From positions 62,001 to 126,000 of the forward strand of contig JANXCS010000003.1 in the NCBI GenBank assembly GCA_025060105.1: 64,000 nt of DNA. Direction: 5' to 3'. The notes under the pieces were generated by a model that did no database searches, was not told the origin of the DNA, and saw only the letters and a list, made by a program, of their open reading frames with translations. Source of the DNA: Pseudothermotoga sp. (GTDB taxonomy: Bacteria; Thermotogota; Thermotogae; Thermotogales; DSM-5069). Both the position numbers and the translations under genes were made by a program. Each line of letters starts with the position of its first letter. The stretch's first letter is position 1. Of the stretch, positions 20,031 through 21,589 are shown in pieces.

Positions 20031-20127
20031 GTTCCTACCTCCCCATCTATTCTTGCTCGAACGAACCATAGCATTCCATCAATTAGAGTATCACTCTCTG
20101 CAAAAACTCTACCACTTATGAAGAATA

Positions 20128-20148
20128 AACCGGCCCAGACGGCCGGTT
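20128..20148 (-). terminator. Hairpin after the haem-module genes
   Basis: AACCGGCC and GGCCGGTT pair around a five-base loop. On the minus strand the stem is followed only by TATTCTT, so it is a weak terminator or a message-stabilising end. It lies 24 bases after the stop of the four-helix protein and before galA. The remaining bases of this 142-base gap should contain the galA promoter, but none is clear. Confidence 0.6.
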
Positions 20149-20172
20149 CAGACATCGCTCATAACTCATGGA

Positions 20173-20535
20173 TCATATCAACCATGGGAAGAAGAAGTGA
20201 ACAAAGAACATGGCCATGACTATGAAATCGGTCCACCTATGTATGCTGAGCCATTTTCTTTTCAAGATTTTCCTGAATAAATAGATCGAGAAAAGGGTTA
20301 AGATACCCAGCCAAAGCAGAGAACCTGTGTGGATTCTGATAGCACCGAGGGCAAGATAACCGTGAATCGATCCAGTGAACAAGAGAGCTATACCCGTGAA
20401 TCTGTGTATTTTAGAGCCGTAGAAGAGAAATCTCTTTGACCAAGAGAATTTTTTCAAAAGTCTTCGGAGCGGAAAGAGAGAAAAATTGTAGAACAAAAGT
20501 ACGACACTCGTCCAAGCTAAAATTTTGTACATCAT
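20173..20535 (-). CDS. Small four-helix membrane protein with two bis-His pairs, putative di-haem cytochrome b
   Basis: 120 aa with hydrophobic segments at about 4-22, 46-66, 70-87 and 102-119. Histidines H44 and H58 are 14 residues apart at helix 2 (KIHRFTG...GSIHG), and H99 and H113 are 14 apart at helix 4 (SIHRWT...FVHF); the two segments resemble each other, as if duplicated. Paired His with this spacing on two helices is how ferric-reductase/NOX-type and related membrane cytochromes hold two stacked haems. I do not recognise a named family; haem binding is inferred. It overlaps the preceding gene by four bases (ATGA), so the two are coupled and probably form one complex. Confidence 0.7.
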   Translation of the reverse strand: MMYKILAWTSVVLLFYNFSLFPLRRLLKKFSWSKRFLFYGSKIHRFTGIALLFTGSIHGYLALGAIRIHTGSLLWLGILTLFSIYLFRKILKRKWLSIHRWTDFIVMAMFFVHFFFPWLI

Positions 20536-21494
20536 AACATCCTGAACCCAACGATGCTGAATTCTTTCAAAATTGCAGGGTCTGGATGTTCATGGGAACA
20601 TGTTTCTCCAAGCTCGCATTCGAAATGAATCGTGTAGTCTCTTCCTGGGTGCTCATCTTCGTTCAAACCGAGTTTTTCGCGCCAATCTGTCACATCTGTT
20701 ACGTCATACACACGATCTGCCACCATGATGAAAGCTTTGTGCACTTGCTTTTGAACTGATGCCCGAATGGTTTTTCCATCGAATTTCGAAAGACTCACTT
20801 CATCGAAAACCAGTAAGCCTATCGCCGGTACACGTTTGAGGAGTTCCACGTGACCTGGACGTTGCTTTATCTCATAAGTCAATTCGTTTCCCATAGGATA
20901 ACCATAATGTTCACCGTCTTTAACGGTTTTTGAGTTGGTCATGTCGTAGACTACACCGAAAGCCGCCACGTAAGCTTTGCTTTTATTCCTTCCATTGAAG
21001 CGGGCAAGCTGTTCCACCCTGAAAACGAGTACTCCAAAAGGTTTAACTCTGCTGAGTAATCTGGTTCCATGTGGGGAGAGTTTCACTATGTCGTGAGTGA
21101 GTTCTTCACCTGCACTGTGCCTGTTTTGGTGAACACCATTTCTCCAACGAGCTGACGTGGAAACATCGTACACGATCCCATTCACAGCGACTAAGGCAGG
21201 CTTACCTTTGCCGTCGTGAGTTTTCAGTTCGTCAATGTTGATCGCTAGGAAACCCACGAACGTGGAGTCGTTCAACAACTTTGGATCGACTTCTGCACGT
21301 GTGAGAAATTTCTTGGGAGCTTTGATTCTATAGACTACACCCTCTACTGAGACGAACTCGTCCGTTTCCATGAGCCTCTGTAAACTTATCAGCGGAAATT
21401 GGCCTTTGAACTGAGTGATATCGAAGTTCGTAAGATCCTGCGCCAAAATCACAACCGACAAAAAGATCACCAAAAACAGAATGATCTTTTTCAC
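20532..21494 (-). CDS. Secreted or anchored protein of four tandem cytochrome-b5-like domains
   Basis: 320 aa. A signal peptide or anchor at residues 1-18 (MKKIILFLVIFLSVVILAQ) is followed by four units of the small bacterial cytochrome-b5-like haem/steroid-binding type (COG4892-like): about 30-87 (degenerate), 88-157, 160-230 and 232-320. Unit 2 is closest to the family pattern: ALVAVNGIVYDVSTS, then VHQNRHSAGEELTHDI and SPHG. Unit 3 keeps DGEHYGYPMGNELTYEI and PGHVELLKR; unit 4 has EDEHPGRDYTIHF and CSHEHPD. GTG at 21494 is chosen because GAGGTGAT lies four bases upstream, although GTG/ATG at 21503/21500 are in frame. Its partner is the four-helix bis-His protein. Confidence 0.75.
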   Translation of the reverse strand: MKKIILFLVIFLSVVILAQDLTNFDITQFKGQFPLISLQRLMETDEFVSVEGVVYRIKAPKKFLTRAEVDPKLLNDSTFVGFLAINIDELKTHDGKGKPALVAVNGIVYDVSTSARWRNGVHQNRHSAGEELTHDIVKLSPHGTRLLSRVKPFGVLVFRVEQLARFNGRNKSKAYVAAFGVVYDMTNSKTVKDGEHYGYPMGNELTYEIKQRPGHVELLKRVPAIGLLVFDEVSLSKFDGKTIRASVQKQVHKAFIMVADRVYDVTDVTDWREKLGLNEDEHPGRDYTIHFECELGETCSHEHPDPAILKEFSIVGFRML

Positions 21495-21589
21495 AAACAT
21501 CACCTCAATTTGATTCTATCACAATAATGAATCTCATTTGATCTAAACATGACAGAACAAAAACAAATCATTCTTGTAAATCTATTAAC

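Follow-up and report, generated by a model that had tools for sequence, protein, structure and literature searches.

Pairs of a DOMON protein and a cytochrome b561 of the CYBDOM type join an extracytoplasmic haem domain with a di-haem membrane protein. Membrane cytochromes of the ferric reductase and cytochrome b561 types (FdnI, NOX and STEAP folds) contain two bis-His sites, one per membrane face, with the ligands spaced 14 residues apart on each of two helices. Cytochromes of the DUF4405, FezC, MsrQ-like and PepSY-like kind (PF14358 and relatives) place four His in two pairs on membrane helices and are associated with FMN_bind proteins and Rnf/NQR-type systems (PMC11334425). Haem b binding has been shown for DUF4405 and FezC, and such cytochromes have been linked to iron stores (PMC11334425). 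In methanogens, a multihaem cytochrome c sits beside Rnf, an FMN-based ion pump, and provides a route to other acceptors (PMC8238504). The NqrBCDEF pumps of Pseudothermotoga and Clostridium ultunense lack the quinone-binding NqrA, which leaves their reaction partner or final acceptor unknown (PMC4148951, PMC5924567). Here we describe a two-gene module from the fermenting bacterium Pseudothermotoga sp., located in a 64,000-nucleotide stretch of DNA that was analysed as a whole (the window). Judged from its sequences, the module is probably a haem electron-transfer unit.

The first-pass annotation of this locus proposed two coupled genes. Both are real, lie on the minus strand, as do all features given below for the window, and share an ATGA overlap. 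The upstream gene (20532..21494) encodes an exported tandem cytochrome-b5 protein. Its longest open reading frame (20532-21503) counts 323 residues from the first GTG, and the residue numbers of the b5 protein follow this frame. A GAGGTGAT ribosome site directly before the GTG at 21494 favours a 320-residue protein, which is the start chosen in the first-pass annotation. The downstream gene (20173..20535) encodes a four-helix membrane protein of 120 residues, a candidate di-haem transmembrane cytochrome. The unit is closed by a terminator-like hairpin (20126..20150) with a 10-pair stem and a T-rich tail, identified as a consensus match only. The b5 protein carries the signal peptide noted earlier (VKKIILFLVIFLSVVILAQ, by inspection). 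Its match to the Pfam family Cyt-b5 (PF00173; 4.3e-11) lies above the curated cut-off (43.1 against 23.7 bits), and a PDB sequence search aligns 6nzx with repeat 2 (5e-11) and 6vz6 with repeat 3 (1e-8). The AlphaFold2 model (pLDDT 87) retrieves b5 structures in Foldseek, from 6nzx (3e-7) down to mammalian b5. The profile, the PDB matches and the modelled fold bear out the four b5-like repeats that had been proposed. An NCBIfam search returned no match for either window protein.

Compared with the small archaeal cytochromes b5 (PDB 6nzx and 6vz6), the window protein has the same repeat sequence, fold and GxH...PH ligand pattern; however, it is exported, forms a tandem of four and has lost the ligands in two repeats. 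Repeats 2 and 3 each contain a GxH...[PG]H pair with a spacing of 19-20 residues. In repeat 2 (residues 90-161; 21021..21236), which was delimited by conservation and the spacing pattern, H125 (21129-21131) and H145 (21069-21071) are invariant in 20/20 aligned homologues. H125 and H145 are the likely ligands of this repeat because H129 (NRH) is absent in some homologues. In repeat 3 (residues 164-233; 20805..21014), alignment and spacing point to H199 (20907-20909) and H218 (20850-20852) as likely ligands, a pair that three congeneric species have lost. The spacing pattern detects no such pair in repeat 1 (21240..21395), which is shortened in the structure model, or in repeat 4 (residues 234-322; 20538..20804), where alignment likewise gives no conserved His pair. 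Judged by these residues, haem binding of the usual kind is possible in only two of the four repeats. The ligands suggested in the first-pass annotation were partly retained: the repeat 2 pair is likely, the EDEHPG histidine (H285) varies among relatives and was dropped as a haem ligand, and the repeat 3 pair had been overlooked. Among relatives, the same spacing pattern gives one to four intact sites: most f10/g32 proteins have four, those of f9/g27 three and some same-genus proteins one (f and g codes are labels of the genome collection used). Repeat 4 also contains an insert, C-x5-C-x-H-x-H (C296, C302, H304 and H306; window 20580-20625), which is conserved in f1 b5 proteins and absent elsewhere; it is perhaps a metal site or a disulfide.

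The membrane protein contains the two His pairs exactly as first described, H44/H58 and H99/H113, each 14 residues apart. The AlphaFold2 model comprises four helices (pLDDT 95). The top five Foldseek matches are all cytochrome-type membrane proteins (FdnI, NOX5 and SpNOX), with a best E-value of 0.27, which is not significant, and a probability of 0.98; bis-His membrane cytochromes make up most of the closest solved folds, again at E-values that are not significant. Searches of Pfam, NCBIfam and PDB sequences with the window protein, and of PDB sequences with the family profile, returned no match. Loss of the four His in homologues had been named as a sign against the haem reading; all four are conserved in 57/57 full sequences from Thermotogota and Bacillota (57 correctly cut rows, with a 58th row excluded). 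They account for four of the 9-10 invariant columns in diverse alignments, and the 14-residue spacing is also kept in distant FMN_bind fusions. The mean loop charges of the family (+7.6, +0.4 and +4.1) place loops 1-2 and 3-4 inside. Therefore, by the positive-inside topology, H44 (20404..20406) and H99 (20239..20241) are predicted to lie near the cytoplasm, as ligands of an inner haem, and H58 (20362..20364) and H113 (20197..20199) near the outside, as ligands of an outer haem. This prediction matches the two-haem layout envisaged earlier. The FMN_bind fusions agree with the topology, as their flavin domain follows the last helix and this domain is extracytoplasmic in known systems (PMC8238504).

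Weak profile matches of the membrane-protein relatives fall most often in DUF4405, Ferric_reduct and Ni_hydr_CYTB, which are all bis-His membrane cytochrome kinds; no profile places the protein in a non-haem family, an outcome that had been listed as counter-evidence. The closest Pfam family is DUF4405, below its cut-off. Membership of DUF4405 (PF14358) was rejected, with 22.4 bits for the best relative, scanned singly, against a cut-off of 26.7 and no match for the window protein. Membership of Ferric_reduct (PF01794; best relative 20.9 bits against 28) and of prokaryotic cytochrome b561/Ni_hydr_CYTB (PF01292; 19.3 against 30.1) was rejected as well. An hhalign comparison with one true DUF4405 protein gave 0.1%. 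The four conserved membrane His in two pairs that characterize DUF4405 are found in 57/57 sequences; however, DUF4405 has six membrane helices and FezC forms a homodimer, whereas the present protein is modelled with four helices and its partner is usually a b5 protein. In contrast to the ferric reductase and cytochrome b561 types, it reaches no Pfam cut-off, has no NAD(P)H/FAD domain and spans 120 residues only. The likeness to the three families is retained in the sense that the protein may work like them. The module also resembles the CYBDOM type in combining an outer haem domain with a predicted di-haem membrane protein, and some relatives have a DOMON protein as partner. Here, however, the two parts are separate genes, the membrane protein is short and unrelated, and b5 takes the place of DOMON in most cases.

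Among 103 Thermotogota genomes, the membrane protein occurs in 43, the b5 protein in 44 and both in 36. Where both are present, the genes mostly stand side by side in either order; they are apart in the f9/g27 group. Relatives of the membrane protein were also found in Bacillota, including Clostridia, by a scan of GTDB contigs, and a profile search detected one in 27/391 genomes of the Lacrimispora class. In three genomes (G057, G064 and G070; loci L012, L016 and L043), an intact b5 gene adjoins a membrane gene that is disrupted or survives as a remnant, so some lineages can do without the unit. The extracytoplasmic partner differs across relatives and comprises a tandem b5, a single b5 lipoprotein, a DOMON protein or a fused FMN_bind domain. 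In Lacrimispora, Hungatella, Alkaliphilus serpentinus and other Clostridia, a single-domain b5 gene, mostly with a lipobox, precedes the membrane gene. An exported DOMON protein gene follows the membrane gene in two f10 Thermotogota (G038 and G046), and a DOMON gene adjoins it on the opposite strand in Halobacteroidaceae. Met and His are the ligand types expected in haem DOMONs, and the DOMON partners retain one Met and the RHS histidine. In Alkaliphilus transvaalensis, the divergent neighbour of the membrane gene encodes an FMN_bind lipoprotein. Elsewhere in Clostridia, FMN_bind and a related four-His domain form one protein, whose gene comes straight after RnfA-RnfB-like genes in four genomes. 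The fusion loci are L141-L147, L155 and L156; others among them follow a pair of membrane genes that look like chromate transporters (by inspection). On the tree of the membrane protein, the partner label switches 11 times or more. A membrane protein with exchangeable outer haem or flavin heads is the form expected of a general transmembrane electron conduit.

The recurrent neighbours of the module are Rnf and NQR genes. In Lacrimispora, the module lies directly 3´ of RnfG-E-A-B, of which RnfE was confirmed by NCBIfam. In six f2/g5 Thermotogota, the start of a second NqrB-type gene lies 253-483 bp from the module on the other strand; the NQR operon was read in three of these genomes, in one as far as NqrF, without NqrA. 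Two of the six (G071 and G073) have the membrane protein, and no b5 protein was found in them. In three Clostridia, an NqrF-like gene and a conserved gene for a protein of ~152 residues precede the membrane gene. The window genome encodes NqrBCDEF at C3:767-4625 (L113:767-4625), ~78 kb from the module, with an NqrF at 306 bits against a curated cut-off of 295 and an NqrC that contains the TGAT FMN site. No NqrA was found beside this operon, and the weak NqrA-profile match of the genome sits on the RnfC of the universal Rnf. Weak PF05896 matches elsewhere in Thermotogota, just upstream of the universal RnfD, were likewise rejected as RnfC, an assignment confirmed in the window genome. The ~152-residue protein (ENMKPG.xTAxGFLGDDDR) is encoded 3´ of NqrF in NqrA-less operons of Thermotogota and Clostridia (L113:4625-5089 in the window genome, contig C3; L115:5104-5553; L137:1012-1470; L140:1888-2346). 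Its window-genome copy has no match in Pfam or NCBIfam, and the protein may be a missing subunit in the NqrA-less pump.

A second NqrB-type gene is present in 37/43 genomes with the membrane protein and in 16/60 without it (Fisher p 2e-9, which ignores kinship). Counted by genus, by hand, the ratio is 13/14 against 5/24 (p 2e-5, which also ignores kinship). The link is not one-to-one, as six genomes with the membrane protein have no second NqrB and sixteen with NQR have no membrane protein. The module also adjoins an NfnAB-like pair in two f1 genomes, and in two f2 genomes, including a named Thermosipho, its neighbour is a 2-oxoacid:ferredoxin oxidoreductase. Taken with the b5, DOMON and FMN_bind partners, the gene neighbours surveyed point to extracytoplasmic electron transfer. 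Gene context makes a link of the module to NQR/Rnf plausible, at slightly less than an even chance. As haem proteins do in the methanogen Rnf system, the putative ones of the module stand beside an FMN-based pump in relatives; the cytochromes are of the c type there and of the b5 type here, and the link to the pump is drawn from gene context only in the present case. Titles and abstracts, from which this literature was mainly judged, joined no b5 protein or small membrane cytochrome to an NqrA-less NQR and held nothing relevant on b5 in Thermotogota or on b5 with Rnf. COG4892 in a C. indolis paper proved to be an unrelated annotation.

Ferrochelatase is absent from all hosts checked (103/103 Thermotogota and 13/13 Bacillota), with a control that is positive in 8/14 known genomes. 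Porphobilinogen deaminase occurs in 4/103 Thermotogota, and the window genome is without it. No AhbD was found above the cut-off, only distant radical-SAM paralogues. Because ferrochelatase, AhbD and porphobilinogen deaminase are missing in the window genome, this host cannot reach haem by any known route, and no system for haem uptake was recognized in the hosts. Given the absence of ferrochelatase, haem, if used, would have to be scavenged or imported. Cytochrome bd occurs in four genomes of one Thermotogota genus (G008-G011; f8, g20), also without ferrochelatase, and so scavenged haem is indicated there too, which suggests that scavenged haem is in use within Thermotogota. These four genomes encode a different b5 protein of 240 residues elsewhere in the genome (L122:5776-6498).

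We propose that the pair would act as an electron-transfer unit with b-type haems only. The membrane protein would be a minimal transmembrane cytochrome whose helices 2 and 4 share an inside-to-outside orientation; one haem would be bound by H44 and H99 close to the cytoplasmic face, and another by H58 and H113 close to the outer face. Its extracytoplasmic redox partner would be the exported b5 protein, with two putative haem sites here and one to four in relatives, and single electrons would pass between the b5 haems and the outer haem of the membrane protein. The most likely electron source, or sink, would be an NQR- or Rnf-type ion pump, which works with FMN. In the window species, NADH would reduce NqrBCDEF and electrons would reach the outer FMN subunit; the b5 string and the membrane cytochrome would accept them, replacing the missing NqrA and quinone, with haem for the unit taken up from outside. 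We infer both the electron flow and its direction. The complete scheme, in which electrons from the outer FMN of a sodium-pumping NqrBCDEF enter the b5 haems and a 14-kDa two-haem cytochrome and form a quinone-free, c-haem-free respiratory chain on scavenged haem in an anaerobe regarded as fermenting, is doubtful.

An extracytoplasmic role in electron transfer or in haem and iron handling was anticipated in the first-pass annotation. The electron-transfer part is supported by the four-His conservation, the profile matches, the topology and the gene context; the iron-handling part finds scattered support. One form of the latter is a ferric reductase that moves electrons outward from the cytoplasm to Fe(III), serving iron uptake or respiration independently of NQR/Rnf. 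The layout resembles ferric-reductase-type cytochromes, the FezC/DUF4405 kind has its tie to iron stores (PMC11334425), and FeoA/FeoB-like genes lie shortly downstream of the module on one Thermosipho contig (L061:7784-10157, by inspection). That FeoAB neighbourhood was seen only once, however, and the unit has no cytoplasmic flavin reductase domain, which together with the recurrent Rnf and NQR neighbours makes this function unlikely. Separately, a relative encodes a 77-residue single-domain b5 without signal peptide whose gene overlaps a ferritin-like gene (PF00210; L123:4747-5543); this b5 is a possible electron donor for ferritin iron. A haem acquisition relay, in which the b5 string serves to catch or store external haem, to be handed inward by the four-helix protein via its outer and inner bis-His sites, would suit hosts that need imported haem, if they use it, for want of ferrochelatase in 103/103 Thermotogota and 13/13 Bacillota. 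The swapping of DOMON and FMN_bind partners, the FMN_bind fusion and the Rnf/NQR neighbourhoods point instead to redox work, and the four cytochrome bd genomes have a b5 protein without the membrane protein; we regard such a relay as quite improbable.

Oxidant defence, with the unit giving electrons for the removal of oxygen or peroxide, appears very unlikely. In a species of the same genus, an AhpC/TSA peroxiredoxin gene (L078:6526-6978) starts 13 bp after the membrane gene, but the peroxiredoxin is not recurrent among the loci read. It is harder still to credit that no haem is involved, with the b5 repeats structural or binding another ligand and the membrane protein of a non-haem kind. The host lacks haem synthesis and two of the four b5 repeats lack the ligand pair; against this, H125/H145 are invariant (20/20), the four membrane His are kept in 57/57 sequences, and the DOMON partners keep the Met and RHS histidine, whose ligand roles are general knowledge.

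For the haem electron-transfer unit that we favour, an exchangeable-head, minimal di-haem cytochrome would be of a known kind, and the NQR/Rnf link would be the new, testable claim. If two haems are bound, the 120-residue membrane protein would have ~7 kDa per haem and would undercut, on that measure, the smallest di-haem b-type cytochrome listed in a 2019 review (11.1 kDa; PMC7096707). If the reading is true, the exported partner would hold b-type haems in tandem outside the membrane; among the solved structures in that review, proteins with more than three haems are only of the c type (PMC7096707). Cytochromes in Thermotogota would then not be confined to the bd type of one genus, and anaerobes unable to make haem would have a use for scavenged haem. 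The module may be the unknown electron acceptor of NQR/Rnf pumps: as a conserved, putative cytochrome unit tied by gene order to these pumps in two phyla, it makes the acceptor question testable with named genes.
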